Shown here one piece after another: positions 1 through 32,507 of a stretch of 32,787 nucleotides of DNA. Source of the DNA: Ettlia oleoabundans. Its lineage: Eukaryota; Chlorophyta; Chlorophyceae; Chlamydomonadales. Numbering within the stretch: the first letter of the stretch is position 1; every line of letters starts with the position of its first letter. Where the stretch lies: the NCBI GenBank assembly GCA_019693395.1, contig JAAMXP010000846.1, forward strand, positions 6,859-39,645, given 5' to 3'. Under the pieces are notes generated by a model. It was not told the origin of the DNA, ran no database searches, and saw nothing but the letters and a program-made list of their open reading frames with translations. A program made the position numbers and the translations under genes.

Positions 1-178
1 GGGCAGGCGGCGGCAGTGAGGTCTGTGCGGAGGCAGGTCGAGATGGTGTTTAGGTATAACTGCTCTTTCATTCAATACAAGCACCCTTGAATTGGAAATG
101 AGACAACAGGGCGTCATCGCAGGGTTTCTTGACATCATCTCTCCCTGTGCACTCCCCCGCCTGTGTGCGAGTTTGCAG

Positions 179-1399
179 GTGGATGTGCAGGCAGTTGTTG
201 TGGCGTACAAGGAGCTGCTGTTGCGGTATGAGGCCTTGTCTCGCACATTGCAGCAGCAGCTGGGGGTGCCTGGCGTGGCAGGCAACGCTGTGACCCACCG
301 CTCCAAGCATGAGCAGCAGCAGCACGGCTTTGGTAGCATTGTGTTGTCCGAGCCAGAGGCGGGCGCATACCAGGGAAGCGGCAGCACCTACAGCGACCCT
401 ATGGCCGTTGCTGCAGGCTCAGGTGGCCATGGCCTAGGTTCAGGATCAGAGGATGTCTGCCTCACAGCCACAGGCAGATGGTCTCCAGGCGGCATTCTGC
501 ATCGCATAGCAAGCAGCAAGGCACGCCTGAACCCAGTGGAACTCAAGGATGGCAGAACAGCGGCAGCAGGCACAGTAACACAGCAAGGCCAGCAGCATGG
601 GGAGTCTGGCCGGCTGTCACGCAGCATTGCCCGCCTGAGCCCAACCAAGCAGTCGGGTCAGCAGGCTTTCTTCTCTGCCATTTTTGGCAGCAGCAGTTCC
701 GCGGCCAGCAGTGCAAGGATTCTGCCAGCAGGAAAGCAGGAACAGCAGCAGCATTGGCAGCAGAAACAAGAGTCGCTGCGGGCACATGAGCAGGAGGTGC
801 AAGCGGCGGCTTGTCAGGTGGCCTTGGCGCTGCCCCAGCAGGCTGATGCAGAGTCGGTGACATTGCAGCTCAACAGTAGCAGCGAGGCAGGTGAAACCCC
901 TTTCACTCATCGTCCGCATGAGCAGTATCCCGCTGCCTGGGCTGATGCAAGCCCAGGGTTGAGGCTGATGGAGGAGGCACCCCAGCTTTCCCTGGACGCT
1001 GACTCCGCGGCAGCAGCTTCACATATAGATGGCATAACGGAGCAAGCCGAACAAGCCACGGTGCTCAACCAACCTGAGCTGCCGCCCGCTTCTGCCGGGG
1101 TGGTTCCCGCAGCCTCAAGCGCGGCTGGTTGGGAAATCACATCAGCAACAGCAGGGCAAGGCGATCAGGCTGGGCCCCGCGCAGCAGCTGCACCTGCCCA
1201 TCTGCACCTCACTCCCCTGGGGGAGGTATCAGAGCTACAGCCGGCTGCACACTCCGCGGAACTGGTCGTGCCTAGGCAGCAGCAGCAGGAGCAGCAGCAA
1301 GAAGGCCCTGAGGTGGCTGACGCGCCGGCTGATGGCACCGCTGTTGGTCTTTGTGCCGTTGGGGAAGAAGCAACAGCTAGCCAGCCAGCTGCTCTGTAG
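179..1399 (+). CDS. C-terminal exon of an unrecognised Gln/Ala/Ser-rich protein (partial)
   Basis: I do not recognise this protein. The exon starts at 179, after a pyrimidine-rich tract ending in a TTTGCAG acceptor (AG at 177-178), and stays open for 406 codons to a TAG at 1397-1399. The first ~30 residues (VDVQAVVVAYKELLLRYEAL...) look like a short amphipathic or coiled-coil helix. The rest is low complexity with many CAG-coded Gln runs, Ala and Ser, and one basic Ser-rich patch (SRSIARLSPTK). No catalytic motif, signal peptide or membrane segment is visible. Upstream exons lie outside the window; bases 1-33 may hold the end of the previous exon (CAG|GTCGAG). An open frame of this length in GC-rich DNA is weak evidence alone, but the acceptor and the helix-like start support it. 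It is convergent with the PEBP gene. Confidence 0.5.
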   Translation: MDVQAVVVAYKELLLRYEALSRTLQQQLGVPGVAGNAVTHRSKHEQQQHGFGSIVLSEPEAGAYQGSGSTYSDPMAVAAGSGGHGLGSGSEDVCLTATGRWSPGGILHRIASSKARLNPVELKDGRTAAAGTVTQQGQQHGESGRLSRSIARLSPTKQSGQQAFFSAIFGSSSSAASSARILPAGKQEQQQHWQQKQESLRAHEQEVQAAACQVALALPQQADAESVTLQLNSSSEAGETPFTHRPHEQYPAAWADASPGLRLMEEAPQLSLDADSAAAASHIDGITEQAEQATVLNQPELPPASAGVVPAASSAAGWEITSATAGQGDQAGPRAAAAPAHLHLTPLGEVSELQPAAHSAELVVPRQQQQEQQQEGPEVADAPADGTAVGLCAVGEEATASQPAAL

Positions 1400-1759
1400 T
1401 CAGGTGGAGGCAGAGCCCCTGCATCTGCGCCTCCCATCTCTTGTGCTTTGCTTTGCTTGCGCGCATCATTGAAGGTACAATCAATCGTCCTGTATGATGT
1501 CCTCTTGATCTCGTGCATACGTTTTGATGCATATTAAGCTGCATCAACCCATTGTTTGTACAGGAAGGCTGGCTGGGTGGTTGAGAAGCAAGCGGGCAGG
1601 CAGTTGTACGGCTTCAAGCACTCAGTAAGTTGCTAAGGCGTAATGGAGGCAAGACAGCTTTCCGTGCACGTTACCACAGATGGGTAGCAAGTGCAACAGT
1701 CCCAAGCAGGGAGCTTCAAACTTTTTACTACGTCTTGGTTGGACAGCCAACCCTTGCCA
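1400..1759. other. Convergent 3' UTR region between gene 1 and the PEBP gene
   Basis: These 360 bp lie between two stop codons facing each other. No family-like reading frame is visible. I did not find the chlorophyte TGTAA poly(A) signal on either strand here, so the mRNA ends are not placed. Confidence 0.4.
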
Positions 1760-3140
1760 TCACTTGTGGCTGTTGAACCACCTCACGGCAATCTGCAGGG
1801 GATATAGATTTGCAGGGCTGTGGGGAGAGGGTTGTGATGGCATTTTGTATGACGCCTGAAAAACAAAATACCTCTTGGGGTCCGGCACGGCTCCCATGCG
1901 TAGCAGAAAGAAACCACCACAGCACATTTCCTTCCATGCAGCTGCCCTCACCGGGTCGCCCAGGTTGTGGGCTGATGCCCATTTACGCACTGCAACACAA
2001 CAGCCATATATGCTTGTAATCAGTTTGTGGGCGCCAATTCCACGAGGGGGTGAACAGGTCTGAGGAATGCCTGCATGGTGCACTACTGAGCTCCCACTGG
2101 TGCACTAGGGGGCAGCAATATCACGCAATGAGAATGATTGCCAGGCGTACTGGATTGTCAGCAGCGCACGAAATGCATAGAACTTGCCTTTAAAGTTTGC
2201 CCTCTTGGTCCTGTCGCCAGCACAGGGGTCATCCACCTGCACACAAACAGGCAAGGGTGTTTTCATGCCAGTGCAGTGGTATGCCTATGCCTTTTCCTGC
2301 GACGCCCATTTTAGAGCAACAAAAATGTGCTGGAACGATTTACCTGGAGAGGCTCCTGGTTAGGCTGCTGGTAGAGCAGGAAGATGTAGCGGTGGGTGCC
2401 GATTGGGGGGTTGGGTCCCATCCAGCTGGTGACCTGCACCGCGGCAGGCAGGTCAGGCAGAACATCAGCAGGGAGGAGATGGGTTGCAAGTGTTCGGCAA
2501 GTTCGGCCTCAAAGGTGCCTAGCCCCTAGTTTGAACTTGCACTTGCCCTTGCATTCGCGCTTGCATTCGCACTTGCCCTGGCACATGCCGTCGCAATCTC
2601 GCTTTTCCCAGCTCAACTCGCCTCATTCCCCTGGCTTGCAGCACCGCCTGATGGAATGTTTGTGACCACCCAGTGCAACCACTCCGCACGACCTGGGTTG
2701 GTTGGGTCTGGTGCATCGGGATCGGTGCAGACCAGCGCAAACAGGGCCCCCTCACTGCCGCCCTCAACGCGCGCAGTTGGAGTGCTGGCGGCATCGTCTG
2801 GTGCAATGGTCACGCCATTCTGCAAAAGGGCCCAAAACACCAGCTGCCCACTTGGTTGCAACCTTTGGTTGCATACCCGCAGGAATAATAGGCTGTGGGT
2901 TGCAAGGTCAGTTGGGCAGGACAACGCTGCGGGTGCTTAACAAGATGCCGTTGGCCAAAGGCAGCAGCAGGATACTTGGGGTGGTCCCACAGCGGAACCC
3001 ACCTGCACTTGCTTGCCACCAAAAGACACCTCTATCTCTGCATGGCTGACCGTTGACACACGATCAATGACATCAGGAATGATGCGTGACTCATCAAGAG
3101 CACCCCTGCAACGGAGGCGCCCAGACGTGGTGAGTGACAT
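1760..3140 (-). CDS. PEBP-family protein (phosphatidylethanolamine-binding; FT/TFL1/MFT superfamily)
   Basis: Exons on the minus strand: 3140-2976, 2819-2622, 2433-2344, 2236-2188, 1989-1760 (about 243 aa, all phases consistent). The family ligand-site motifs are present: DPDAP (residues 88-92), WLHW (102-105) and GTHR (133-136) followed by YIFLLYQQ. The C-terminal part ANFKVRKWASAHNLGDPV matches the conserved PEBP helix. The residue corresponding to FT Tyr85/TFL1 His88 is Trp (102), as in the MFT-type proteins of plants. PEBP proteins bind phospholipids or anions and act as scaffolds or regulators; in land plants they control flowering and germination, but the algal role is unknown. Two introns (2621-2434, 2187-1990) need GC donors, GAG|GCGAGT and AAG|GCAAGT. 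The C-terminal tail after residue ~185 is longer than usual and may contain another intron (donor-like GTGAGG after GGCGACCCG). The first ATG in the frame was chosen; an upstream exon cannot be excluded. Confidence 0.85.
2536..2583. repeat. 12-bp tandem repeat inside a PEBP intron
   Basis: Four degenerate copies of a 12-mer of the form CTTGCATTCGCR start at 2536, 2548, 2560 and 2572. The array lies wholly within the intron between PEBP exons 2 and 3. Confidence 0.75.
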
Positions 3141-5556
3141 TACAGCAGCATGGCCAACAAGGCGCTAGCTGCAATGATCGCCGCCACACTGTAGAAATGT
3201 AGTGCTCTTGCACACATGTCTATGACAGGCGAGTGAGTCCACCACGAGCTCCGCTCAGGATGAGCCGCAGGGTTTCGATGGTCAGTGTTCGGACAGATCA
3301 AGCCCACGAGCCTTACACTCTAAAAAGACGGGCCTTGGAGCTAAAATAGTGGAAACGATAAGTGAGTGAGGACCCCCTCTGTACCTTCCATACAGGACTT
3401 TCCACCCCGTTATACAAGAGTCCGAGATAAATTGTTAGCTGTGTCAGCTCCGTCCGGCGCGTTCGAAAGTTGGCAACGTTTGCAAGCAATTGAAACTGCA
3501 AAAAATCAGCCCGGGGTAAGAGTAGACCTCCCCCCCTTGCTCACTGTACGGTAAAGAGAGAAATGTAACGCGAACCGTGTCGCCGCTGGTGACTCCCTTC
3601 TCGCGCGGTTTAGCGCATCAGAATCCCCCTGCGCGGAAGTCGTGGATTTGGGGGGGACCGCCGGCGGTAAGGCCATCCTCCAGCTAGCAAGCGTCATATC
3701 GTGACTGCAGCTTGTCGGAGGACCGAGCCGCCCGGTGGGACCGCGCAACAGCGGACGCAAAAGGTAGAACAGAGAAGAGCAAGCGCAACGCGCCCAATCG
3801 CGGCAGGCAGCGCGAGGTCGCCGCCGCAGCGGCAGCCGCCGTCCCGGACCCCAATGTGTTGGCTGCGTCTCAGGTAGCTGACCGACCTCAAAAGTGGGCG
3901 GTGGTATGTCGGAAGTTTTAATGGCCGGCTCACGAGGCATGCGTAGTGCGAATCGCAGAGTTAGGTTGCCAGCAAAGCTATCACCGCCCTGCGCACTCCC
4001 ACAGGGAGCCCATGGGGATTTGCCAGCAGCAGCTTCGCCTGGCATTCAGCAGGACAGATTCTGGCAAAAGAAGTGGGAGGACAAGTGCGCGGCACACACA
4101 TCATAGCAGCAAGCAGGGCAACTTGCCAAGGTGCGACGGCGGCAGCGGCAGCGGTTAGGAAAGCGGCCCCCTGGCCCGAACAGACCTTTGACCTGGGACG
4201 ACAGATTCGGAAATGATTGTCTAATCATCTACCGCCTGATAAATCGCTGGTTGTGTGCCACACAGTCGGGAACGCAGAAATTATCACCAGAACGCTTGAG
4301 CTTCATATCACCAGCTGCTGCCATCGCCGCCACCTTCAGCAGGCGGTGGTCTATTGTGCGGCTTCCCGACTGAAGAGGGATGTGAATGCGTTGTTTGAAC
4401 GTCAATTGGTTTACATCGCAGTACAAATAACCGATAGTATTGGTCGGGAATGGGGTGGCAGAACTGGTTCCACCCCACATATAGCGGACGACGGATTTGG
4501 TCGAGACACCGCCCGGCTCCCGCGGCAAACCGCTCGGGACGACCTCCAAATCGCGAAAAAGGGCAGAACGGGCGCCGCGCGAGCCACTACGGGATCTGTT
4601 AATGCGGATTGCGTCGCGGGCGCCGCATGCTTTGCGGCTCCGAAGCGCTAATTGTGTTGGTGCGGTGCGGAAGTTTGATTTTGTGGAACCGGAACGACGT
4701 TTCTTTGCTGTCGCTGGGGCGCAGCATGAGCGTGGGGGGCCCCGCCAGCTCTGCCGCCATCCAGTCTGCCTGCCCATGCAAACTCACCCTGCATGGATCA
4801 TCTACGGCACCTCTGGCGACCGGCTCCGGCCAGTGGCTGATATTCAGTGAAGACGCCATGCATTTGGCTGCAACCAGCTCACTTGCACGTCAAAGTGCAG
4901 CGCTGAGTGCCTCACTAGGCAAGAGCAGAGGTGGCGGTGGCGCTCGTGAAAGTGGCACCCGCTCGCCAGAACTGTTTCCAACATTTGCCTTTGCTACTCC
5001 TCCGCCTGATCACATGCTTCTGCTCATTCTGTGGAGCATATTCGTGGAAAATATAGGGTTGCCAGCAACGAGGCTGGTTCCTGGGAACGGGCTTCACTTG
5101 CCAGGCGGCGGTGGCGGCAAGGCACTGGCAGGGCACCGAGGCCTCCACCCACCGCTCCACGCTTTCAACGCATGGTTGACCTTTCATCAACAGAACCACG
5201 CAGCACCTGCGCACGGATAATCGACGACAAGAAAGGGTGGCAACCCTGGTTCTTCCTCCGTGGGCCCCGCGACCCGCCCCGGGCCCATCCGCGGGCCTCG
5301 CAGGCCCCGACCCGCTTTTGGCCCTTGCGCATCCTCGAAAGGCCGACAATCCAGCCGCATCCGGTGAGGACGACGTCCAGCAGTTGGCGTGGTTCTCCGT
5401 TCTGTCCCCCGTTCCCCCGCGGCGGCTTGCGCTTCATATTAATGGGCACATACTTGCTTGCACTGACAAGGCGTTCACGCGTCTTCTATGCACCGACACC
5501 TCTTTGGCACTGCTGCAGCTGAACTGGCGCCTGAGGCACAGCGCAGCACGGCCCTT

Positions 5557-5645
5557 GGGGTGGGAATCCGCCCGTAGGGTGGGAGTCTGCCCTTAGGGGT
5601 GGAGGACAGGCTGGTTTTAGGGGGGGGTGGGGACGTCCGCCCTTA
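5557..5645. repeat. Degenerate G-rich tandem repeat (units ending TTAGGG-like)
   Basis: Four imperfect units of about 19-26 bp occur at 5557-5576, 5577-5595, 5596-5619 and 5620-5645. Each starts with a run of 3-8 G and ends in GTA or TTA, so the junctions read (T)TAGGG. One unit begins TTTTAGGGG. The plus strand has many G-runs. Confidence 0.6.
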
Positions 5646-6165
5646 GGGTTTTGAAACGTGTCTTTCTTATGGGCACAATCATCACAAGTTAGCTCCCGCC
5701 TTATCTCACCATTGCAGCACGGTTGTTGGCCACAACGGAACCGCTGCACCATTGAAACAACAATGCATGCTAAGTTCCCTCATGCCATATTATATCTGTG
5801 TGCATGCGCCTTCGATGCAATGCCCCATTAACATCCACCAATAAGTGCACTCGGCGGACAACCTGTATGTAAAAGGGCCGCTGGCCACGCGCAAGCATTC
5901 ACCCACGCTGGTGCCAGACATGCACAGCGCTCCTCTCCTCCACGCGTTCAAGCGTCAAACATTGACAACGTTCCAGAACTTGTCGGTGCTGCATCAAATC
6001 ATTTCATACACGACAATCAATAACCGGAAACATTCGCTGGCGCTGCCACTGCCACTGCCGCCACCACTGCAGCGCTGCCTGCAACGCTGCTTCAGGACAG
6101 CGCGGCAACCCCACCGACGCGCAGGCAGCCTGAGGCCCGCGGCCGGAGCGAGGGGTAAGGCGCGA

Positions 6166-6178
6166 GGTGCGAAGCACC
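6166..6178. repeat. GC-rich hairpin (GGTGC-GAA-GCACC)
   Basis: A perfect 5-bp stem with a 3-nt loop, embedded in a dense run of CGAG/CGAAG words (about 6140-6220) like the short palindromic GC-clusters seen in chlorophyte organelle and nuclear spacers. No function is inferred. Confidence 0.45.
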
Positions 6179-6461
6179 GAGCGCCGCCGAGTGAGGCAGC
6201 GAGCCGAAGGCGGACGGGGCGAACGGGGCGACTGCCCGGTCTTCACCGCCAACGATTTCCTTGGGGGGGTCCTCCCAAGTCAACATCGGGCGAGTCGGCA
6301 GGGTTTCAGGCCGGCGGTATCTTTCTTCTTCCAGCTGGCGGAGCCGCGGCGCGGCGGCGCAGCGGCGACAGCGGCTTGAGCGGCTCACTGCTTCAACCAC
6401 ACTTTTGGGGCCACACCTTTGCATGAGCGCCCTCTAATTATGGCTCCCTAAATGAAGGCCC

Positions 6462-6466
6462 TTACA
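6462..6466 (-). terminator. Poly(A) signal TGTAA for the dynein-tail gene
   Basis: TTACA on the plus strand is TGTAA on the minus strand, about 60 nt past the in-frame TGA at 6527-6525 of the last recognised dynein-tail exon. TGTAA is the canonical chlorophyte poly(A) signal, so this supports an mRNA that ends here. Confidence 0.5.
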
Positions 6467-6524
6467 AGACAGGTAAATAATGCAACAAAGTTCCACTGGC
6501 AATCTTGTGGTCTCCGCCGGCAGG

Positions 6525-9500
6525 TCAAACCCACAGGTCACGAAGCCTGGCTGGCACCCTATCTATAGCCAACACAAACTCTTCCCAGAGAACTGGCAAG
6601 CGGTCGATCTGCTCAAGCTCCTCGTCAGACACTCCCGTCTGCAGGTCCGGCATAGTTGTGTGCGGGCAGGCAGGGGTCAAAGCAGGTGAAAAGCAGGAAA
6701 TGCCCGATCTGCGGAGCAGTGGCTCGAGCACTTGAGGAGGCTCAGGATTCTTCTCACAACAACTGTGGAGCACAGCAGGCGCCAATAAAATCGCCGGATT
6801 ATGAGGCGCCGGAGGTCAAACCAACACCAAGCCCTGCTAAATTGCCCCACCTGCATGTTGATGAGTGCGTCGTACTTGTCCTGGCAGTCGGCGATGCGCT
6901 GGTGCAGCTCCTGCCGCTCCCCCTCCAGCCGCCCATGTAGCGCCTCCAGCCTCTCAAACGCCTGCCTGTGCATCTCCTCATTTACAGCACACCGCACTTC
7001 TGTGGCCACCTCCACTTGCACATGCTCTGCCGGCACTGGGTCCTCCGCCTCCTGCACTCCTCCCCCTCCTGCCGCCGCTTTCTGCATGGCTCCCTGACCT
7101 GCCTCTTGCACAGCTTCCTGTCCGCCCTTCTCCTCCTGCATCCCTTGCATCTCTTCTTGCTTGCTTAACTGCTGCTTGCTCTCATTCGCTGGACGTGCAG
7201 CTGCGTGTCCTGTAAGCTCTGCAATGTGCTGCTCCAGCTCCTCGTGCAGGGCGTTGAGCTGGCGTGACGCCATGCTGGCCAACAGCCCTGAGAAGGCCGC
7301 CACCCAGCTGTCACATAGCATCACCAGCTGATGCTTAAATGTAGAGGCGTTGAGGTGCAGCCAGCGCACCTTTAAGGTGCTGTCCTCTGAGAGGACCTGC
7401 ATCACAACAATGAGGCCTTGCCTCCAGGCTTCACATCTAGGCGCTTTGTCTGTAAGCTACTTGCCCCACTGGCTGTGCTCAGGTACGGTGAACATTGACC
7501 CCTTCGTTCATACACCACCCGCAGCACCACAACACCGCCGCACCTCCTCCTTCAGGTCCTGGTACTTTTGTATGTCGGCCAGGAAGGACGTGACGGGCTT
7601 GTTGGCACGCTCATACCGCTTCATGTAGGCTGCACAGTCTGTCTGCCACAACGACACCATATACTTCCTCTCGTGGAAGGTCAGCACCTGCATTAACCCA
7701 AGGAAGAGATGCAGCACAATGACAGTGATACACAGAGCACACGCAGCCTTTTTGTACAAGGGCTCCAAGGGTTCAACGGCAACAACACACCCACCATGCA
7801 AACCAGACAGCAGGGCTCAGCTATCTGGGCCAACCACCATGACGATTGGCCCAACAGCCATCGCCCTACCTGTTGCACCCTCTCCACGATGCTGCTAATG
7901 CCTCGCGTGATGGCATGCATCTGCTTGGTCACTGCCTCCTCATTCTTTCCAACCACCTCCATAAAGGACGGCGGCACCTTTGCCTCCCTGTACATAGGGC
8001 AGCATCTGATAAACCACTGCACAGATGCGCATGAAGATCGCGGTGACCCGCAGAGCACCACAGCCTGCCCAGCTTATGAGAGACCGGGCAACAATAGCTG
8101 AGGCAATCGGTGCTGAAGAGTAAACCGGCCTCCTTTACCCACCTGAGGCACCCTGGCAGAGGCCCTGACGCTGAGCAGCCGGTCAAAACCTCGGGCAGCA
8201 GCCTAGGCAGAGCGTCCAGCGCTGCTATCGTAGACTTGCTAGTGTTGTGCACAGTGTCAAACAGGTGCTGCAGCGTGGGCTGCAGCTCCACCCTGCAGGC
8301 CAGAGATAACGTCTACCTGGCACAATGCGAGGATACCTACCATCCAGGCAGGGAAAAGCAAGACGCTGGTATACTGCAGACCATTGAGGCGTCTCCCACA
8401 TTTATTGATTGGTTGAGGGTGCAAGCCAAGCCAGAGCAGCAGCTGTGGGCCTTCACTTGCCTGCCATTTGTGTCCAAAATGATGCTGAGCACAAACACTG
8501 GTGGCATTTCCATGGCTTTTTGGTCCCCCTGCAGCACCTGCGCCACCTCATGCAGGCTGCGCCGCACGCAGCAAGTCAGAGCCTCCAGCAGCTGCGCATC
8601 AGAGCGCTGCAGGAAGGCCAGCCATTCCCTCTGCACATCCTCACTGTCTGCCTCAAAGCGACGGTACAGGCTGATCAGGGAGGCGCATAGGTGGCTGTAC
8701 GCATCCTGCATCTTCGCGCAAACAGCGACCTGCAAGCATGAGCAGAAGATACCCACATCGACAGTCAAGGTCCATTGACTTAGCGGGCGCTCACACATTC
8801 AACAGCGTAACTTGTAAGCAAGGCCGATTGAAGTAATGAGCTGGCTTGCAGTACTGCATAAATCACACCTGGTGCGCTGCCTGGTGCTGCTCATAGCCAG
8901 GCAGATCGTACAGCCTCTTGCGCTCCATGCGCACTAGCAGCGCCTCCCTAAACAGCGTGCAGGTAGCAGCCACCGCAGCGCTGGCGGTCTTGAGCTCAGC
9001 CACCGTTACAGCCACCTGCTTGCAGCAGCGCAGCGCATCCTTGTGGAAAAAAACCGTCTGGCGGTGCGGCGAGCCCCAGGTGAGCTTGTTAATGCCGGGC
9101 AGCACGCGGCGGTCCAGGAACCTGCATGCCGAAGGGTACGCAGTATGCCTTAGGAGAGCCAAATCGCTATCTAGTCTCCAAGGAGCACAGGATGCTAGCA
9201 GGAATAGCCCCTCCATGTCGCACCTGATGCGGTCCTTGCACAGACGCCGCTCCTCGGCTGACAAGCTGCTCAACACCGCATTGTAACAGCGAGAAACCTG
9301 CACTGAGCCGTTCCATGCTGCAAGGAGCAGGTGCCGCTCGGATAGCAGGTCTGCCGTCGCCAACGGCACTCCCAAGCGCTGCCGCTCAAACAAATATCCC
9401 TCCTCCAGTGCCCGGTGTAGCGGCCAGGAGATGTTGACGTGCAGAAGCCCGCCAGTTGCCTTGTCCTGGTAAAAAAGGTTGTCCTGTAGGTGGCTGGCAA

Positions 9501-11948
9501 TGTCAGGCGGCATGCTGCCATACCACTGCAGGCAGAAAACATGCGGTTTGTTCGTAGATGGCACATAACTGTGCAGATCAACGGGGCCAGGCTACCAGCA
9601 GTGCTAGTCCACAGTGCAACCAGAGATTTCCTTGCCTGCATATTGAGGTTGTTGATGGACTGCTGCAAACCCATATGCAGCGCCTCATACGCTGCCGCTG
9701 ACTGTGCTGCCATTGGCACCTTAGGGAGGTAGCCTGCCATGGCGGCAAGGTGATCCCATGTGTGCTCAATACGCTGCAGCAGGCCCGACAGCAGCACTAC
9801 ACGCCCAGCATGGTGTGGCAAGCGCATGCCAGAGGGCATCTCGCTCTGAATAGCATGAAACAGCTGCTTCACCACCGCCACCTCATGCAGGAACTGCAGA
9901 TGCCAATCTGACATGCTCAAATCCAGTGCTTTCCTGCAGCCGATCAGGATGAGGGGCAGTGGAGAGATGGCGCAATTGGCAGAAGGCTTTGCACTGCTGC
10001 ACTGCAAAGCACCCTGCACATCAAGCAAGCGAACCAATAGCAGGTGTGCCCGACCACGCCAGCCAGCTACATGCCTAAGCCCGTCACGTGTCGTGATGTG
10101 CGCAAATGCCTCAATCACGTCTAGTTTGGTGGTAAGGCAGGAGGCGTGCCCCACCGCTGTGGCAAGTATGTTGCCCAGCATCTGCTCAAGGTCACGCAGT
10201 ATGGTGCGGAAGGCGGACATGTCCTCGTACCAGTGGCCCAGCCTCACATCCAGCACATCATAGTCCAGGCCTTGCAGCCTGCACCCATAGCAACTTTCCT
10301 GGGACAAACTGTTGGGGCAAGGTCCCCTGCTGATGTACACCAGTAATGCAAAGCGTTGGAGCCTTCTAGTCGACAGCAGCAGGCACTGTCAGGCAACAAA
10401 AATGATGGCATTTCTGTTAAAAGCTAGGGCAGGCGGTTATTGCTAGTAGTCCTGCAACGACAGTAGGGCACACCTGCGCATTTGCCGGGCGAAGGCTTGG
10501 TGCACCTCCTCAAGTGTCCGAGCAATCTCAGATGCCTTGTTGCCGCTAAGCATCGCAGTCAGATGCTGGCTGCAAGAGAACTGGCGCTGCGCAGCGCACA
10601 CCTCCTGCAAGTCCTGGCAACGCTGCAGAAACGCCTCCACATGTGCATAGATGGATGCAGGATTAGATGTCCAGGGGCGCTGTGGCAAAGCGTCCGCCAC
10701 ACGCTGGGCCGCAACCTCATATGCCGCACGTGCAGCAACAACTGCATCGCAGCATTGCTGCAAGCGCTGCTCCGCTTCTGATATCTCCAAACCGTCAAAT
10801 ATGCTGTTCACGTCCAGCACCCCGCGGCATTGGGCTACCACTGCGCTGCCCACCTTGTGCAGCAAGCCCGTCATCTGGTCAGGTGTGTTGTAATGTGGGG
10901 CCAGCGTCCACACCATGCGGCATGCATCCAGCATGACTGGCAAGGCGTCAGCCAAGTGTGCAGGGGCTTTGCCGTTCAGTTGTGAAATTGGGATCTCCAG
11001 TGCCTCCAGGAACGACAGGTTGCTGGCTGCCTGCTCGGCTTCAGCAGCGATGCTGCCTCGCATCTTGAGAAAGGCAGGCACATGTGGGGAACGTGCTGCT
11101 TCCAGAACACGTAGAACGCCAGCCATCCCCGCACCCTCCAGCTGAGCCTGCAGTCTGCTCAGGTCGATGGTGCGCCGCCGCCAAAACGCCACCTCCTCCA
11201 TCGGCCCCTCCATATCTGCTGCTCTTTGCTCCCGTGCCTGTTGTTGTGCAAGCAGGTTGCGAATCTGGTGCGTCCAGCGCAGCAGCTGCACTTCCAACCG
11301 CTGCACCAACTCCTGCTGACGTGCTGCTACATTGGGGTCGCCCAGTCCCGACTCAGGTGGAACATGCAGCATCGTCAAACCATGGGGTGCATGAATCGCT
11401 TCGCTGAGCACCGAACAGAAGGTGTTTGTGTGGGTAGCCCAACCATGCTGCAGCTGCCCAGGCCAGGAACTTCCTAAAGCTTGCAGTCGAGGAAGATGCA
11501 GTCCCACCAGGACCTGCTGCAGCTGCCGCAGTGGCTCATGGCCGTTGAGTTGCCCTGCTGCTATGCGGTCACAAGCGCTGTTGCCTGGCTCACGCAGCAG
11601 GTATAGCAGCTTGCCAAAGCGCTTCGGTATGCTATGGGCCACATGCAGCTGTTTTATGTTATCAATGTAGCAGAACAAAGCGGGAACCCCACCACGCTCA
11701 AACTGATCCACCAGCTGCACAGCGTGGGCGGGACGGGAGTCCAAGGCAGCGGCAGCAGCGGCCTCGCTGCCGAGTACCTGCGTCACTCGCAAATCGCTCT
11801 TGATCGTAGATGGCGCAAGCCTTTTGTGGCAAGGTGCAAGGCTGCAATGTCCAAGGAGCCGAGCGCTTGTAGCGCTGTGACGCACCTGTGTCAGCCACGA
11901 ACGCAGCCGAGCCTCCATCGTGGCATGTAACCATTCTAATTTACGCAT
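6525..11948 (-). CDS. Dynein heavy chain N-terminal tail only (no linker, no AAA+ motor)
   Basis: Eleven minus-strand exons: 11948-11886, 11777-10474, 10278-9636, 9525-9224, 9121-8869, 8729-8461, 8292-8190, 8016-7870, 7687-7544, 7396-6851, and 6638 to a TGA at 6525. They give about 1,295 aa with all phases consistent. The protein follows the DHC_N1 tail of axonemal-type dynein heavy chains: VQLVDQF near residue 40, GPMEEVAFW (~212), HYNTPDQM (~316), DYDVLD (~461), LPGINKLTW (~777), WQTDCAAYMKRYERANKP in exon 9, then VSDEELEQIDRLPVLWEEF at the end. The tail normally dimerises and binds intermediate chains. A complete heavy chain is over 4,000 aa; linker, six AAA+ modules and stalk are absent, and a different gene (PEBP) follows. 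Exon 10 carries an extra Gln/Glu/Ala-rich insertion of ~60 residues. Two introns (9635-9526, 8460-8293) need GC donors (CAG|GCAAGG, CAG|GCAAGT). At 6535 a GTGGGT donor is also possible, so the last exon could splice onward. Start ATG at 11948 begins MRKLEWL; the first intron (11885-11778) is optional because it is in frame without stops. Confidence 0.85.
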
Positions 11949-13039: not shown

Positions 13040-13904
13040 TCACTCTTCCTGGCCAACCTCTGCGAACTCACGTGATGCCAATTGCTGGAGCAGCTTACTG
13101 AGCTGCTTCCTGGCTGCCAGCGCCTTGGCGGTTGGGCGTGCCGCACCTCCATTACCAGTGCTGCCTGTTGTCGCTGCTGCCTTTGCTGCTCCATTTCTGA
13201 TGTCATTAGCGTCAAGTGCAGAAATGTCAGACTCTGCTGCTGCCGGCATTGCATATGTTTGCTGTGCCAGCCGCAGCAGCTGCCGCACCTGCTGCAAATC
13301 AGTGCCGCTGCTCTGCACCAGCCCAAACACTTCTGTTACACCCGCGGCGTCACCAGCCAGCAGCGCCTGCATCCACAGCTGCACCTGCTGCTCTGCGGCT
13401 GGGTTTGCAATAACTCCCTGTCCCGACTTCACGCTCTCAATGGCCAGCTGCAGCTGCACCACCTCAGCTTCTTGCACCGACTCGCGCAGTTTCTTAGCCA
13501 CAAGGCTCTCCTGCCGCTGGCGGCCCTGGTTGCGGTGGCTGATGCGTGCAGCCAGCCCAACGGCATCTACCAGCTCCTTCCCTATGAGTGGTTGCAGTCG
13601 CATGAGCTGTTTTTCTGTCAGCCGAGAGAGCTGACGTGCAATTTGATGGAATAGCTTGGCTGCGGTGACAAAGTTGGGACAGGAGAGAGTGAGGCCGGCC
13701 TGCAGGGAATACTGACAAGGGTCACACAAGTAAGGACGGACCGAAAGAGTTGTTGACAATTTGCTCACCTTCCTGCTTTGCTGCCGTCTTGCTGGGCCGA
13801 CCCACACTCCGTGGCGGCCCACCGCCTGACTGCTCAAGCCTGCCAACTGAGGCCCGTATCACACTGGTGCACAGATGCCTACCACAACGAACCGTGTGTT
13901 GCAT
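13040..13904 (-). CDS. DarP/YjgA family (DUF615) ribosome-associated protein homologue
   Basis: Two exons: 13904-13769 and 13659-13040 (about 251 aa). The splice joins SKTAAKQE to AKLFHQIARQL in phase 1. The core (residues ~36-100) follows the DUF615 pattern: a basic entry, an LxxLTEKQLMRLQPLIGKELVDAV helix, then ARISHRNQGRQRQESLVAKKLRE, matching the bacterial R-x-x-RRRQLQYIGKLMR segment. Bacterial DarP (formerly YjgA) assists late maturation of the 50S ribosomal subunit. The N-terminus, rich in Arg, Ser and Thr with no acidic residues before residue 24, could be an organelle transit peptide, so I infer work on a chloroplast or mitochondrial ribosome. The C-terminal half (Gln/Ala-rich, then a basic QLSKLLQQLASREFAEVG helix) is longer than in bacteria. 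An in-frame ATG at 14015 would add 37 residues. A Helitron end sits about 480 bp upstream. Confidence 0.75.
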
Positions 13905-14634: not shown

Positions 14635-15162
14635 TCAGCCAGCAAAGTGGCCAGCGTGCAGCGGTGATGCCGGCGGTACGCATATCACCAGCTGCTGCCA
14701 TGAGCCAACACGCGACAGAGCAACATACAACTGGCCGTGGGTGAACACTGGCTTTGGCAGGAAGATGCCTGCCTTGCCAAGTGTCTGCCCCTGCGACTTG
14801 TTGATGCTCATAACGAAAGCGGGGCGCACAGGGAACTGCCGCCGCTGCATGTCAAACGGCAGGTCCATGTCAGAAGGCTGCATAGTGAAGCGTGGGATGA
14901 ACACACTGGTGCCTGCACGGTTGCCACTGGCAATCTTAGCCACAATGACACGATCAGTCAAGTGCTCTACCACCAGCCGTGTGCCATTGGCCAGGCCAGC
15001 AGCAGCGTTGATGTGGCGCAGTAGCATGATGGGTGCGCCTGGCTTGAGGCGCAGCTCGTGCGGTGGGATGCCAGCTGGCGTCAGGCTGTGCAGGAACTCC
15101 ACTGGGTATATAGCAACACGGTGTGGGTCCTTAAGGGAGTCCACGCTATTGTACACGCGGTC
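14635..15162 (-). pseudogene. Helitron PIF1-like helicase, C-terminal fragment
   Basis: One exon of 175 codons behind a good acceptor (TTTTCTGTGCAG, AG at 15164-15163). It matches the C-terminal third of Helitron/PIF1 helicases: EFLHSLTPAGIPPHELRLK, GAPIMLLRHINAAAGLANGTR, then the superfamily-1 motif V/VI region with INKSQGQTL and HGQLYVALSRVGS. These helicases unwind DNA during rolling-circle transposition. Walker A/B motifs and the Rep nuclease are not found in the 600 bp upstream, so the gene looks 5'-truncated or interrupted, although this fragment has no internal stop or frameshift. The stop is close to 14635, followed by AT-rich sequence and then the Helitron 3' end. Confidence 0.85.
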
Positions 15163-15186
15163 CTGCACAGAAAACACGAATGGCAT

Positions 15187-17588: not shown

Positions 17589-18535
17589 ATGACGGACTCC
17601 GACGTGCTTGAGGCGGCGTTTGACGCTGCCACGCAGTTCGTAGGAGCGGTATCTGCCAACGGTTCACTGACCGCCAGCCAGTTATTGCGGTTTTACGGGC
17701 TTTTCAAGCAGGCGACAGCGGGCGCTCCGTCCGCCAACAGCAAGCCCAGCATCTTTGACCGCCGCGGCAGGGCCAAATGGAACGCCTGGCAGTCATGCGG
17801 TGCACTAAGCGCCACCCAGGCGCAGCAGCAATACATAAATATGTTGACGGAGTTATACCCAGGGTGGGCTGGTGAACACAGCAGCAACGGCGGGAATGGC
17901 AGAGCAAAGCGGGGGGGCGCTGGCGGTCCGGTGCAGAGCCGTATGGCAGACGCATTAGAGGAAGAAAGTGAGGTGAGATGCTGCCGTGCCATGTAGCACA
18001 TGTGGACCCATGCTGCAGTTTCTACTACTTGAACATTTGTGCTAGTGTGGGGCGGTTCCGCGATAATTGCAGCTTAGAGGAATGTATGCCAGCCCACCTC
18101 GCTGTGACATGCTTACCTGCGACCGCCTTGCTGCTGTCCTTTCTGCAGGATTTAGACACTGCGCCACCATTGCTCCAAGCAGCCAGAGCAGGTGATGCAC
18201 CCGCTGTCCACCAACTGCTGCAGCAGGGGGCTGACCCAAACCTAGAGGACTGCGAGGGCGCCACCGCGCTTCATTGGGCAGCGGACAGGGGTCATGTTGA
18301 AGTCCTGCGACTGCTGTTGTCATATGGTGCGGAAGTCAATGCCACTGATTGCGATGGCATGTCCCCGCTGCATTATTCAGCACTGGCAGAGCAGGAGGCA
18401 GCCGCACGGCTGCTGGCGGCAGCACCCGGAGTCTGTATGGACCTGCGCAACAACGTTGGCGAGACGCCAGCGGATGTGTCGCCGGCCAGCTGGGCCTTTT
18501 TCAAGACAGAACTTGAGCCTTACAGCCATGCCTGA
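17589..18535 (+). CDS. Acyl-CoA-binding protein with ankyrin repeats (ACBD6 type)
   Basis: Two exons, 17589-17972 and 18149-18535, joined in phase 0 (256 aa; animal ACBD6 is ~280). Residues ~3-92 form an acyl-CoA-binding domain: FDAATQFVG, then LLRFYGLFKQATAG (matching the YGLYKQAT signature, with Phe for one Tyr) and RAKWNAWQS, which carries the conserved Lys and Trp that hold the acyl-CoA. A Gly/Asn-rich linker leads to two to three ankyrin repeats from residue ~131 (LLQAARAGDAPAVHQLLQ..., GATALHWAADRGHVEVLRLL, GMSPLHYSALAEQEAAARLL). Such proteins are soluble carriers of long-chain acyl-CoA; the ankyrin part binds partner proteins, as in plant ACBP1/2. There is no N-terminal membrane helix, unlike plant ACBP1/2, so ACBD6 is the closer match. 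The ATG was chosen because the domain starts directly after it. Confidence 0.92.
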
Positions 18536-19915: not shown

Positions 19916-22527
19916 TCACATGGACCTGGTATCACTGAATGAGTTTGTGGGCAACATTGATCTTGCGGAATACTGCTCCAGCCCCAGGTTGTACCGTGCC
20001 GCCTGCACCGTGTTGTGCAGCACCGCCGCAATTGTCATGGGCCCCACGCCACCGGGCACCGGGGTGAGTGCGGAGGCCACTTGGGCCACGTCACAAAAGT
20101 CGACATCACCAACCACATGCCATGGCTGCTGTGACTCAAAGATCTCCTCCACATATTCATGCCGCGCATACTGCGAGCCATCTCCTGCTGCCGCAGCCTC
20201 TTGATGGCACACTCCTGCGGCTCCTGGCGCTGCTGGCTGCCGGTGCCCATGTGCCGCATCTGACACCGACGGTGAGACACCATTGCCAGATGTCTCGTGG
20301 TGCTGCTGCTGCAGCAAGTCATTACCACCACCCTGCGCTGATACCTCGCTAGTGCTGCTGTGGCCATCCATGCTGCTAGAGCGGTTCACCACGTTAATAC
20401 CCACATCAATCACCACTGCTCCCGGCTTCACCCAGTCCCGCTTGACCAGGTGTGGATAGCCCACCGCAACCACCAGGATGTCGCCTGTGCGGGTGATGCT
20501 GGGCAGGTCGGAGATGTGGGGTTGTGGATGGTGTGGGCTGCTTGAATGCATCACGCTAACCTGCACCTGTGCTTGCTGCGACTGAGAGATTTGCGATGTG
20601 TGTTGCTGCTGCTCCTCCCGCTGCCGCTGCTGTGGCAGCTGCCACGACGATTGTTGCTGCAGGTGAGGTGGATGCAGGCTCTGAATTGCAGTAGACGGCC
20701 GCAGCACACTTGAGTGATGCTCCACCTCATAAGGGTGGTGCTGTGCTGCTGCACCCGACTTTGCCAGGGTGCTGCTGCTGCTGCTGCTGCTGCTAGCCCC
20801 ACCCTCTTTGTTTCCAGTGCTTTCACGTCCCACGGTGTATGCAGCCATTGGCCCAGGGACGCGCGGTAGGCAAGCAGCTGCCTGCGCTCGCTGCTTGGCA
20901 CGCTGCAGGCAGACGACCGGGGGAGCTAGGGACACAATCCGCATAGATAACTCGTGACTGTTGCCTTACCAGCTTATATCTCAGGCACCGCACCAAACAT
21001 GCGCCACCACAGCACTGCTGGCATTGCCGGCAATGGATTTTCATGCAATAGTCAGGAGGGTGACACGTGCCCACCCATTCAGTAGCTCCCGCGCAGGCAG
21101 CAATACGCATTGGCACAAGTATTGCAGCCCGGAGATACGGCTATGATACAGGCACGCACCTCGGCTGAGGTGGCATCAGTAAAGAGTTCCCGATACGAGT
21201 TGCGGTGCAGCACGGTGACGGTGGCTGCACCGGCGTCCCTGAACAGCATTGCCAGGGGCATGCCCACCACGTTGCTGTCACCCATGACAACCACGCTCTT
21301 GCCCCGCACCCCCACGCCACTGCGACGCAGCAATTCAATCACGCCCAGTGCAGTGCAGGGGATGAAGCGGGCATCCCGTCCGCGCATGAGGATGCGGCCT
21401 GCGTGGAGGGGCGGATGCAAGATTTACTTGAGTTATGTATAGTTCGGCAGAATGGCTGGAGATCGGTGCAAAGTGTTGGTTGACTGCACCAAAGCATGCC
21501 AGTTGCCGGCGCCATTAGATGAGGGCCAAATGAATGGCACCTACGTTGCCTGCCAGCCTGGCAGCTGCCAGCAAGACTGTTAACGCTCCCATCCTTCAGC
21601 TGCCTCCTGGCAGCGCCTGCACCCCCTCTCACCCAGGTTGAGCGGATGGAAGCCATCCACATCCTTCTGCGGATCGAAGCCGTCGATGATTGCCTCTTCA
21701 TCAATGTGGGCAGGCAGCGGAAGTTGCATCAGCACGCCGTCTATGCGCGGGTCACCGCACAGCGCCGCAACTGCCGCTTCCAGCTGGCGCTGTGTCACGC
21801 TCTCAGACAGCTGGCGCACCTCGGCAAAGATGCCCACCTGGATAGGGTCGACGGCCAGCGCAGGTAATGTGTGTGTGTGTGGGTGTGTNNNNNNNNNNNN
21901 NNNNNNNNNNNNNNNNNNNNNNNNNNNNNNNNNNNNATGAGGCGGAGAGGGAAAAGGCAAAACGCGCTGAATCAATCATAACTTTCGCCCTGCTGACTTG
22001 ACTGGGCGAAAGCTATTGCCCAGCCCACTGCATCAAGGTGTGCGTGACATGCAACCCACCCGTTCACAGGCCTCCCTCTTGCGAGCGACGTACAGGAGGC
22101 TGTCAGGTCGGGAACCGACTAGCACCACGCCTAGCCCTGGTGGGCGGCCACCCTTTGAACAGACATCGCTCACATCCCACGCAAGCTCCTCCTGCCAGGC
22201 AGCTGATATGGTACGCCCATCCAGCACGCGTGTGAAATGCAGGGTTGTGGGCTCAGCTGCAGGAGGCGCCGGCAGTGAGCGGGTGCTTTGCCGGTAAGTT
22301 ACTTGCAGCCAGCGCCGCTGCTGCCAACCCAGGCAGCGCAGATCTGCATGGGATGGGCAGAGGTGCTCAATGGGAGTGAAGGGCGGAAAGTCGTGGCAAA
22401 AAGCCGGAGAAGACGACAGGGAGCCTCGCGCATCACCTTGCCATGCGCACGCTACGAGGGGAGTTTGCGACAGGGGCACCACCAGACGTCCCAAAAATGT
22501 TTTGGCCATTACCAAGACACTGCCCAA
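19916..22527 (-). CDS. folD: Bifunctional methylenetetrahydrofolate dehydrogenase/cyclohydrolase with large insertions
   Basis: Four exons: 22527-22060, 21837-21633, 21398-21160, 20902-19916 (632 aa; usual FolD is ~300). It converts 5,10-methylene-THF to 10-formyl-THF with NADP+. Visible family motifs: [12 protein letters not shown], catalytic YVARK (146-150), [49 protein letters not shown] (the nucleotide-binding loop), [41 protein letters not shown]. Two low-complexity tracts interrupt the NADP domain: residues ~305-435 (poly-Ser, Gln/His-rich), after the TVTVLHRNS strand, and ~478-565, between DVGIN and GDVDF. Normally only ~10 residues lie at each place. The first ~70 residues may be an organelle targeting sequence or leader. 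An acceptor nearer 20558 or an in-frame intron in the second tract would shorten the protein. Intron 1 holds a CA/TG run and the assembly gap. Confidence 0.9.
20769..20793 (-). repeat. (AGC)n microsatellite coding poly-Ser in FolD
   Basis: Eight consecutive AGC/GCT-type triplets on the minus strand encode a run of eight Ser inside the first FolD insertion. Such a repeat is prone to length change. Confidence 0.7.
21868..21936. other. TG microsatellite and assembly gap in a FolD intron
   Basis: A (TG)n tract at about 21868-21888 runs directly into 48 unknown bases (21889-21936). Both lie inside FolD intron 1 and do not break an exon. The true gap size is unknown. Confidence 0.95.
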
Positions 22528-22730: not shown

Positions 22731-23665
22731 ATGGCCCTGGCAGCTCGTGCTGTGTACCCCCGTTTGGCCCTGCGGCATTGCCTGGCTCGGAAACCCCAGC
22801 GCTTCTCCGTTCGTGCAATGTCTGAGCAGGCACCGCAAAAACTGGACAAGACAACGAGTGAAGAGGTATGCTGGTGTGGTTGGGTGAACCAAAGAGGGTA
22901 GCGGCGGTGCTGCACTTTTAATGGCAGCGCAGGTTCAAGAGCTGGCTGCATCCTCCCTGGTTGCCATTATTTTCGCCAGGTTTTGCCCCTGCTGTCTGTT
23001 GGACCTGCAGGTGTGGAAGAAGCTGCTGAGTGCCGAGGAGTTCCACGTGCTACGTGACAAGGGCACGGAACGGCCGGGCACGGGCGAGTTCAACAAGGTG
23101 TACCCAAAGGGTGGCGTCTTTGTCTGGTGAGCATATCCAGACTGTGCTTGTGATAACATAACAGCCACAATCAGCCATCATGTTCGGTGTCCTTTCTCGG
23201 ACTGCTGACCTCCATCTTGTGTCAGCGTGTGGGCAGCCTGGGCCTCACTCCCATCGGCACCCGCTACCTAGCTCTACCTACCCACCCACACCCTCCCACA
23301 GCCGCGGCTGCAATGCACCGCTTTATCAGGCGGATACAAAGTTTGATAGCGGATGCGGCTGGCCTGCCTACTACGACAACATTCCAGGCGCAGTGGAGCG
23401 GCATGAGGACAACACCTTTGGCATGCGACGTGTGGAGATCACCTGCGCGAACTGCGGCGGCCACCTGGGGCACGTGTTTGAGGGAGAGGTAAGTAACATT
23501 CCTCAGGACCCGATTTTGAGCTCCAGAAGCAGCCAGCTGCATCTGCTAGCAATGATGCTTAGCTGACTTGTTGGCCTTTCTGCGATCGTGCAGGGTTTCA
23601 ACACCCCCACTGATGCTCGCCACTGCGTCAACTCGCTTTCCATCAAGTATGTGCCAGACGCATAA
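22731..23665 (+). CDS. msrB: Peptide-methionine (R)-S-oxide reductase B
   Basis: Four exons: 22731-22865, 23011-23126, 23302-23488, 23594-23665 (169 aa). The enzyme reduces the R-epimer of methionine sulfoxide in proteins, using thioredoxin. The whole MsrB fold is readable: VWKKLLSAEEFHVLRDKGTE, GVFVCRGCNAPLY and ITCANCGGHLGH (Zn ligands Cys84, Cys87, Cys132, Cys135), SGCGWPAYYD, and the catalytic RHCVNS (Cys157) near the C-terminus. Cys102 in GCGWP is at the place where 1-Cys plant MSRB1 has Thr, so this looks like the 2-Cys plant MSRB2 type. The N-terminus (MALAARAVYPRLALRHCLA...) is rich in Ala, Arg and Leu with no acidic residues for 30 positions, a good chloroplast or mitochondrial transit peptide. 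An in-frame ATG at 22659 would add 24 residues; ATG at 22731 is in better context (AAAATGG). Confidence 0.95.
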
Positions 23666-30249: not shown

Positions 30250-32507
30250 ATGGCGAGCACCATGGATGTGGACAGGCCCACCACAGGGGCAGTGGCGCCG
30301 GGAGCAGCAGAGGGCCCCTCCATGTCCAAGTCGGCCTACGCGCTACCCTGGGTGAGCAGCCTTGGCCAGGCTATTTGTCTATGTTCCGCAACAAGCAACC
30401 TCAAGGCGGTTCATACTGCTGCAATGCACTCGAGCATGTCCTGCATGGGCGTGCAGGTTGCCCCACCCATCTTATGCTGACCTGTGTGCTACCTTCGCTT
30501 TGCACAGGTTGAAAAGTATCGTCCCAACCGGATCAAGGACATCGTTGGGAATGTGGAGGCAGTTTCACGGCTGCAAATCATTGCCAAGGAAGGCAATATG
30601 CCAAACATCATCCTGGCGGTAAGGAGGCGAAGGCTGGGTTTCATCCCCTACAGTGTGTCCCACAGTTGGTTTAACACGCTAGCACAATATACAAGTCCGA
30701 TGAAGGGCAAGGAACGGCAGGGCTTAGCAGACCTCAACATGCCTTACACGGAGCACACGATTTGCAGCAAATGAACCTGGGGGAGCTTTTTGTTTGTGTG
30801 GGAAGGGTGGTGGTGGTGGGGGGGGGGCTATGAAAGGGCCTGGTCAAGTTGTCGCGGACCAGCACTGAGTTTTCAAGTGATGAAGCAGCTGTGAACTTGG
30901 CATCCTACAGCGACCCCACGACCAAGCACCCGGAGCAGCCCCGACTCGTAACGCTTTGTGGCCCCGCCTATTGCCCATCCACCTGCCTTGCTGCAATCCT
31001 TTCCCCACCCATGCAGGGACCTCCTGGCACTGGCAAAACAACTAGCATCCTGTGCCTGGCACACGAGCTGTTGGGGCCCAACCTCCGTGGTGCGGTGCTG
31101 GAGCTGAATGCCTCTGATGATCGCGGGATTGATGTGGTGCGCAACAAGATCAAGATGTTTGCGCAGCAGAAGGTCACTTTGCCGCTCGGGCGCCACAAGA
31201 TTGTCATACTGGATGAGGCAGACAGGTGCACAATCTGCTTTTGGGTAATGGGGTGGAGTGGGGCGGTTCTAGTGCGCTGTGCAGAGCGCAGTGCGTTGGT
31301 ATTGGTGTGCCATCCATACGACGCTGATGGATGCTGTGTCGGGGCAGTGGTCAGTTTGGAAGCCTTGGCAGGATGGGGGAGATCGGGGCTTCAATTCTGT
31401 GGGGCACAACTGTTCATGAATGTGGCAGTGTACAGGCAGACAGTTGTGGCTGCAAGGGGCTCAGGGCGTGTAAACGTGCGGCATTGCATGAACCCAACTC
31501 CCACAGTGAGCCCAGGCGGCAGGGCTTGGTGCCCCCTCCACTTGGCAGCTCCCCCAAGTCTGGCATACTTGACCCTTTGTGCATGCGCCGGCAGTTCGCT
31601 TTGCCCCTGTTTACCGCTTGTGCTCCTTGCTTGTGTGACCGGGACTGCCGCTGCAGCATGACGCCTGGTGCTCAGCAGGCACTTCGGCGCACGATGGAAA
31701 TTTATTCTTCCACCACCCGCTTTGCGCTGGCCTGCAACCAGTCCTCAAAAATCATTGAACCCATCCAGAGTCGATGTGCGATTGTCAGGCGCGTTGTGGT
31801 CGAGGCAGGGGACAGGCAGGACTGTTTGGGTGGGATGTGGGCATGCTGGGTGGTTCTTCCTAATCAAGGTTGCAATCAGCGGCAGGTGTGTTTTGTGTTT
31901 CCACAGGGTGCTGCCAAAAATCCATTCAGCCCCACATTCTAACTGCTGCTGCTGCTGCTGGTTGTGATGTGCCGCCGTTTGGGTGCAGGTACAACAAGCT
32001 AAGTGACAAGGAGCTGCTGCAGCGCATGCTACACGTGTGCCAGACAGAGGCTGTGGCTCACACACCCGATGGCCTGGAGGCGGTGGTGTTTACCGCTGAT
32101 GGGGACATGCGTCAGGCACTCAATAACCTGCAGGTGGGCTGCGTAAACGTGCAACACATGGCAGCAAACCCGTTGTGCTATGCTATGAGTGGTATGTGGG
32201 TGCAGTATTGCTACCATGCTCAGCCTTGAGTGATGCTGGGTGTGCATCAACCCATCAACATGTAAGCAGCGTTATAGGGGCTGCTAGGCTGTTCTAACAG
32301 CTGGCAGATTGCCCTCAGCAACTAGAAACTGTCTTCCGCTGCAATCCGCGCGCTTTCTGGCAATCGCAGGCCACTGCCAACGGCTTTGGGCTGGTCAGTC
32401 AAGACCACGTGTTCCGTGTGTGCGACCAGCCGCACCCCGTGCTGGTCAGCAGCGTGGTGCGGCACTGCATGGAGGCACGCATCGATGATGCATATGAAGG
32501 GCTGCGG
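30250..32507 (+). CDS. RFC2: Replication factor C subunit 2 (clamp loader), 3'-truncated by the window
   Basis: Six exons: 30250-30351, 30508-30618, 31017-31225, 31657-31788, 31989-32133, 32370-32507, giving 279 of ~330-350 residues; the C-terminal collar domain lies beyond the window. RFC loads the PCNA clamp at primer ends using ATP, in the nucleus. Motifs: LPWVEKYRP entry, Walker [10 protein letters not shown] (72-80), [18 protein letters not shown], Walker B ILDEAD (to 140), [12 protein letters not shown], sensor-1 ACNQS, and the subunit SRC motif in IEPIQSRC. It is much closer to human 40-kDa RFC2 (yeast Rfc4) than to other small subunits: [60 protein letters not shown]. Intron 4 (31789-31988) needs a GC donor, CAG|GCGCGT, to keep IVRYNKLSD in frame. 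The donor at 32508 (GTGCGG) leads out of the window. Confidence 0.95.

Follow-up and report, generated by a model that had tools for sequence, protein, structure and literature searches.

Why should a dynein heavy chain gene end just before its linker? The question is raised by a minus-strand gene in a stretch of Ettlia oleoabundans DNA that was analysed as a whole (the window), i.e., the 32,787 nucleotides at positions 6859-39645 of the 39,645-bp contig C299, from an assembly that comprises 1230 contigs and 32.9 Mb. The part of the contig to the left of the window, C299 1-6858, is all N. We consider it likely that the gene is a conserved motor-less dynein heavy chain gene. The full reading, that a dynein-1-beta tail lost its motor in an ancestor, was kept by selection and serves as a static I1 scaffold of a reduced axoneme, is, taken as a whole, only just probable. 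Given a conserved motor-less gene, the chance of an axonemal scaffold role lies somewhat above half.

Eleven phase-consistent exons, running on the minus strand from 11948 to 6525, join into a single open frame of 1290 codons plus TGA. The first-pass annotation, made from the DNA letters and their open reading frames, had described just such a set of exons reaching the segment before the linker and a frame ending at TGA, and the spliced frame agrees with it on both counts. Splice sites were picked by agreement with a predicted protein of Micractinium tetrahymenae (ABPG75_012976, hereafter P0001); consensus sites earned a slight bonus, and GC donors were penalised. The exons and two sites near the end of the gene are as follows.

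10474..11948, minus strand: exon 1, from an ATG at 11948 that is unproved as the start; N-terminal region, then the first half of DHC_N1
10075..10278, minus strand: exon 2; DHC_N1 continues; 66% identity to P0001 824-894
9636..9933, minus strand: exon 3, flanked on both sides by GC-AG introns; 63% identity to P0001 890-993
9224..9525, minus strand: exon 4; DHC_N1 positions 438-539 of 562; 63% identity to P0001 991-1093
8869..9121, minus strand: exon 5; 69% identity to P0001 1090-1179
8461..8729, minus strand: exon 6; 68% identity to P0001 1175-1267
8143..8292, minus strand: exon 7; 66% identity to P0001 1261-1319
7870..7987, minus strand: exon 8; 67% identity to P0001 1314-1356
7544..7687, minus strand: exon 9; 72% identity to P0001 1352-1405
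6851..7396, minus strand: exon 10, containing a poorly conserved low-complexity stretch; 49% identity to P0001 1402-1571
6525..6638, minus strand: exon 11, the last, which ends ...LWEEFVLAIDRVPARLRDLWV and then TGA (6527-6525); 57% identity to P0001 1564-1605 of 1607
6529..6534, minus strand: GTGGGT, a weak donor-like site within the last codons; AG is absent before it, unlike the 10 modelled donors
6462..6466, minus strand: TGTAA, a candidate poly(A) signal 58 nt past the stop

The 10 introns are 102-212 nt long. Seven of the donors are GT and three are GC, AG precedes each of them, and the acceptors are all CAG. The GC donors, at introns 2, 3 and 6 (10074-9934, 9635-9526 and 8460-8293), were chosen despite the penalty in the model, and three in ten is far above the share usual in most eukaryotes. 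Pseudogene marks, i.e., frameshifts, stops and broken splice sites, were looked for across the modelled tail gene and none were found. Similarity to P0001 starts at 11780, and the first 56 codons of the frame are without similarity support, so the true start may lie within exon 1. The low-complexity stretch of exon 10 (residues 1141-1200) is 31.6% identical to Micractinium over 38 aligned positions. As to the 3' end, TGTAA is a poly(A) signal in green algae, and the copy that had been placed about 60 nt past the stop is present, reading 6466-6462. The minus strand of the window carries 20 TGTAA in all (0.61 per kb), and the copy after the stop is therefore mild support only.

From its similarities, the window gene is the tail of the 1-beta/DNAH2 chain of the two-headed I1 (f) inner arm, an assignment that narrows the earlier call of an axonemal dynein. 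It is made because the exon 1 matches, the full-tail matches and the exon 1 model all rank 1-beta first by E-value. DHC_N1 was matched above the Pfam cut-off in exons 1, 2 and 4. When the whole tail was compared with PDB chains, the first match was 8glv_Co (Chlamydomonas dynein-1-beta, residues 84-1104 of 4513) at E 7.9e-209, followed by DNAH2 at E 2e-106 and outer-arm beta at E 5.9e-49. Exon 1 alone gave the Chlamydomonas dynein-1-beta heavy chain at the top (E 1.1e-70) and then DNAH2 (6e-39). The AlphaFold model of exon 1 (491 residues) has a mean predicted local distance difference test score (pLDDT) of 74.4, with residues 1-73 below 50, and it shows, for exon 1 only, the N-terminal strands followed by helical bundles of a dynein tail. 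Its top PDB match by E-value is again 8glv_Co (1.7e-18); by template modelling score (TM-score) on the query the match is modest at 0.54, below the values of some other axonemal tails (up to 0.67).

Where, then, is the motor? The linker (DHC_N2) and the six AAA+ modules with P-loops that mark membership of the heavy chain family are absent from the window gene. With residues 1101-2600 of nine dynein heavy chains as tblastn queries, no match better than E 0.03 was obtained in window 1-6540, which is in keeping with the earlier remark that no linker, AAA+ or stalk sequence lies downstream; the same queries gave a best of only E 0.075 in window 11901-32787. Splicing onward from 6535, where the first-pass annotation had placed a donor, was rejected, as no dynein sequence was found in window 1-6540 and the site, CCT/GTGGGT without a preceding AG, is a poor donor. 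The search for an orphan motor half which that annotation had recommended was run on the whole assembly, six-frame and exon by exon, with DHC_N2, AAA_6, AAA_9, MT and Dynein_C; the counts are lower bounds, and within them no 1-beta-type motor was found. DHC_N2 gave at least 11 matches (6 on contig C87 and 5 on C833), AAA_6 at least 10 (5 on C87 and 5 on C833), and Dynein_C at least 6 (3 on C616 and 3 on C833), while the AAA_9 matches (at least 3) and the MT matches (at least 4) are all on C833.

The motors found in the assembly are those of outer-arm alpha and beta only. C833 is outer-arm alpha, with 7kzm_A as its best match (E 1.8e-107), Kelch repeats upstream and a weak TIG match. C87 (10,088 bp) looked like a motor half because its start, just before the linker, is near the point where the tail ends, but its best match is 7kzm_B, outer-arm beta, at E 7.9e-59 vs 4.3e-9 for 1-beta. 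C616 is the C-terminal part of outer-arm beta (best 7kzm_B, E 3e-99). As a separate observation, the outer-arm beta pieces are 47.6% (C87) and 51.2% (C616) GC vs 56-61% for the window, C833 and four other stretches, and GC at third codon positions is 0.545 in the C87 exons vs 0.691 in the tail gene; by composition, C87 and C616 may belong to another alga present in the sample.

Two predicted proteins of related algae look alike. The protein-database search with exon 1, which covered partners of about 1530-4870 residues and scores only candidates sharing exact words, listed first P0001, a predicted M. tetrahymenae protein of 1607 amino acids. It matches DHC_N1 (E 7.1e-109) and, below threshold, the DNAH2/5/8 coiled coil, but none of the motor families. 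Compared in turn with the genome of the window, P0001 gave 12 matches, all on C299, spanning P0001 residues 348-1605 of 1607. The final match is the last exon of the window gene, and P0001 stops 2 residues past the last aligned residue, the C-termini being ...ARLRQLWDA in P0001 and ...ARLRDLWV in the window. That the window DNA and the P0001 model, tail-only alike, end within three codons of the same residue is our strongest point. With P0001 as query and partners of about 884-2812 residues, one protein was listed besides the query, P0009 (N2152v2_007496), a tail-only model of 1044 amino acids from Parachlorella kessleri; both proteins are named 'hypothetical protein'. The tail-only gene is probably not one broken copy, to judge by these alignments. 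As a control on annotation, Micractinium sp. CCAP 211/92 has an outer-arm beta of full length, with 4532 amino acids, DHC_N1 and the motor families. We noted by eye that P0001 has about 340 extra N-terminal residues, a leucine-rich stretch (residues 1-340) missing from the window gene and perhaps a neighbouring gene fused in the model.

Has selection kept the tail? Aligned identity is 754/1214 (62.1%) between the window and Micractinium and 444/1034 (42.9%) between the window and Parachlorella. In 60 neutral simulations that started from the window codons and ran to the same 62% identity, the mean number of stops was 20.4 and the minimum 10; the number observed was 0. Replacements between the window and Micractinium are also milder than neutral (mean BLOSUM62 -0.10 vs -0.61, standard deviation 0.07 among simulations), which is a better test than the stops, but the alignment itself favours mild pairs. 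The mild replacements, the two tail-only relatives and the shared end support the earlier suggestion that the gene is, or was, under selection. The shared end suggests that the motor was already gone when the lineages of the window gene and Micractinium parted, in which case selection acted only on the tail.

The rate and pattern of change were compared with those of motor-bearing chains over a Chlamydomonas stretch in which both ends of the tail are absent. Animal DNAH2 is identical to Chlamydomonas 1-beta at 40.4% of 782 positions; the corresponding figures are 34.0% for the window tail (879 positions), 36.5% for the Micractinium tail (879 positions) and 39.3% for the Parachlorella tail (791 positions). 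Of the outer-arm beta tail sites that are identical in Chlamydomonas and a fish chain, Micractinium keeps 171/240 and Myrmecia 202/242; with a snake chain as yardstick the figures are 184/267 and 231/269, respectively. Identity of that tail to Chlamydomonas is 45.0% in Micractinium (P0010), 63.7% in Myrmecia and 61.3% in Asterochloris. Outer-arm beta of Micractinium is thus fast in its own right; the motor-less tail seems to change even faster, allowing for the different yardsticks. The window and Micractinium agree more often at the sites where Chlamydomonas and Priapulus are identical (240/316 vs 277/466), but the best-kept blocks of the tail are not the ones that Chlamydomonas and Priapulus keep best.

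The course of events that we favor runs as follows. A 1-beta (DNAH2, I1/f) chain would have been stripped of its linker and motor, probably in a common ancestor of this alga, Micractinium and Parachlorella. An ancient exon boundary may have been the site of the loss: LW is present at both ends, the window codons CTGTGG overlap GTGGGT, and GTGGGT at 6529..6534 is possibly a relic of the ancestral intron boundary. The tail would have been retained afterwards by selection on the tail, would still fold as a helical dynein tail, and would serve as a static platform to which intermediate and light chains or a microtubule doublet attach. Its place would be the I1 position of an axoneme that is reduced, seldom seen and powered by outer-arm dyneins. 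Such an axoneme is the first choice because NYD-SP28 was matched at two places in the assembly, along with one dynein light chain and, just at the cut-off, IFT57, and because C. variabilis keeps outer-arm dynein subunits, according to the available part of the HEATR2 paper (PMC4168999). The NYD-SP28, light chain and IFT57 stretches are 56-61% GC, like the window. Among the roles that the first-pass annotation had offered, scaffold or place-holder fits best, and a brake on 1-beta is less likely because no full-length 1-beta was found for the tail to compete with; its split gene is weighed below.

A number of points weigh against this reading. The tail gene is predicted from genomic DNA, and no other I1 subunit is shown in the assembly. 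For the partner, 1-alpha, no second DHC_N1 was found in the assembly, where the outer-arm beta tail did not turn up either. Casc1_N (IC97), the one I1 intermediate chain family searched for, was not found in the assembly, with no control genome positive; Radial_spoke was not found there, but again no control genome was positive, so this says little. The assembly is incomplete, since the DHC_N1 tail of outer-arm beta was not found in it, and the 1-beta motor could therefore be missing too. The relatives are known as predicted proteins, and truncation of their models is conceivable: the database does include shortened models of long dynein genes, e.g., P0035 (Elliptochloris, 2554 amino acids). 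P0009 ends in nine residues, RHLSEPTQA, unlike the window end, and two inner stretches are missing from it, so its exact end is less certain. The full-length control comes from another Micractinium, and the 120 proteins listed contained no outer-arm beta from either M. tetrahymenae or P. kessleri. Further, the exon 1 search did not list the full-length Chlamydomonas 1-beta, although the database contains C. reinhardtii (P0024), and its silence on full-length algal 1-beta therefore proves nothing. The stop count is weaker than it looks, because P0001 and the spliced window model are partly stop-free by construction. At sites identical in Chlamydomonas and Priapulus, the window keeps only 160/316, M. 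tetrahymenae 168/316 and P. kessleri 153/270, compared with the 171/240 of the Micractinium outer-arm beta tail (fish yardstick), a difference that argues against an unchanged I1 role. Finally, an unchanged I1 role would lead one to expect a constraint profile matching that of motor-bearing orthologs, and none was found at block level (rank correlation -0.28, n=14, p 0.34); the pattern of constraint in the alignments fits a changed role better than an unchanged I1 role.

The alternative that survives best, though we think it rather unlikely, places the tail outside the axoneme: after reduction of the flagellum, the 1-beta tail would have kept a motor-free role, e.g., as a cytoplasmic platform for microtubules or light chains. 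The failure of tail constraint to track the motor-bearing orthologs and the absence of 1-alpha among the matches in the assembly both speak for it, and it is in line with a 2007 proposal for Ostreococcus, as given in the available part of that paper (PMC2239267). Outer-arm alpha and beta, NYD-SP28 and the borderline IFT57 in the assembly suggest, on the other hand, that an axoneme may still be built, and dyneins of the Chlorellaceae may diverge fast in general, as the outer-arm beta identities of Micractinium and Myrmecia illustrate. Stated more tentatively than the scaffold, though with somewhat more to be said for it than for the cytoplasmic platform, is the proposition that the Chlorellaceae 1-beta tail became a non-motor protein with a conserved function, a changed constraint and no 1-alpha partner.

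A split dynein, in which the motor would come from a separate gene elsewhere and the halves would be assembled or trans-spliced, is improbable. The tail does stop at a natural boundary before the linker, and an incomplete assembly leaves room for a missing half; but the five motor families revealed no 1-beta-type motor in 32.9 Mb, and C87, the contig that starts near the boundary, is outer-arm beta. For force to be transmitted, the linker probably has to be joined to the tail without a break, which also counts against a split. Less probable still is an artefact, in which a contig misjoin between 3.1 and 6.5 kb would coincide with shortened gene models in both relatives. No gene was recognised in window 3.1-6.5 kb, the flank of the contig is N, and the database does hold shortened dynein models, but the misjoin here and the break in the Micractinium model would both need to hit within three codons of one and the same residue, and another Micractinium does have an outer-arm beta model of full length. 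Given the matching Micractinium end, a misjoin in 3.1-6.5 kb is unlikely, though not impossible. No better placed is a dying relic, a tail decaying after recent loss of the motor, which would account for the fast divergence and for the keeping of only about half of the deep sites, but not for conservative replacements, no stops, intact splice sites and the same architecture predicted in M. tetrahymenae and P. kessleri.

How does a conserved motor-less 1-beta tail, the reading preferred here, compare with known systems? Chlamydomonas dynein-1-beta (DHC10, I1/f, 8glv chain Co), whose tail is homologous and is the best exon 1 fold match by E-value, has 4513 residues with linker, AAA+ ring and stalk, whereas the window protein has 1290 residues and none of these. 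In the Chlamydomonas tail-only mutants (the 1-alpha of pf9-3 transformants, ida2 1-beta alleles and the oda4-s7 beta), the tail reportedly assembles the arm without that motor; those are laboratory alleles, whereas the window type would be a gene fixed in several species. A natural tail-only dynein heavy chain is unreported in the available parts of the open-licence literature (including PMC4736243, PMC4168999, PMC2239267, PMC4313461, PMC12868012 and PMC12338079). The IAD-1alpha and 1-beta chains of Ostreococcus are called apparently canonical, unlike the motor-less window gene, in the accessible part of Wickstead and Gull 2007 (PMC2239267), which found no cytoplasmic, outer-arm or single-headed dyneins there. 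If the Chlorellaceae 1-beta tail did become a non-motor protein of its own, the function of the I1 tail can be separated from the production of force, and the retention of I1 dynein genes by some green algae that lack flagella would be easier to understand. It is the motor that defines a dynein heavy chain, and a motor-less tail under selection in several species would separate the scaffold and motor roles of I1 in nature, beyond mutants. It would also make testable the question, raised in 2007, of what keeps I1 dynein genes in Ostreococcus, which has no axoneme, and it would mark the Chlorellaceae as a group in which to seek either a hidden flagellum or axonemal proteins at work without one.

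The tail gene has several neighbours in the window. A PEBP gene follows on the same strand, as had been annotated (PBP match, E 1.2e-9); it is one of five open reading frames scanned in window 2.6-6.5 kb, and the other four are without a Pfam family match. Beside the dynein tail, window 13040-13858 (minus strand) encodes a DarP-like ribosome maturation protein (PF04751, E 6.5e-17), a family that is mainly bacterial, and window 14635-15186 (minus strand) holds a fragment of a Pif1 2B-domain helicase (PF21530, E 6.3e-17), perhaps a Helitron remnant. At window 17595-18535 (plus strand) an acyl-CoA-binding domain is followed by ankyrin repeats, an arrangement that we take to be ACBD6-like. A run of N lies inside the window at 21889-21936. 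Farther along the plus strand are a SelR/MsrB domain (window 23162-23566) and an AAA ATPase (window 30834-31661) that resembles, in a naming done by eye, a replication factor C subunit.

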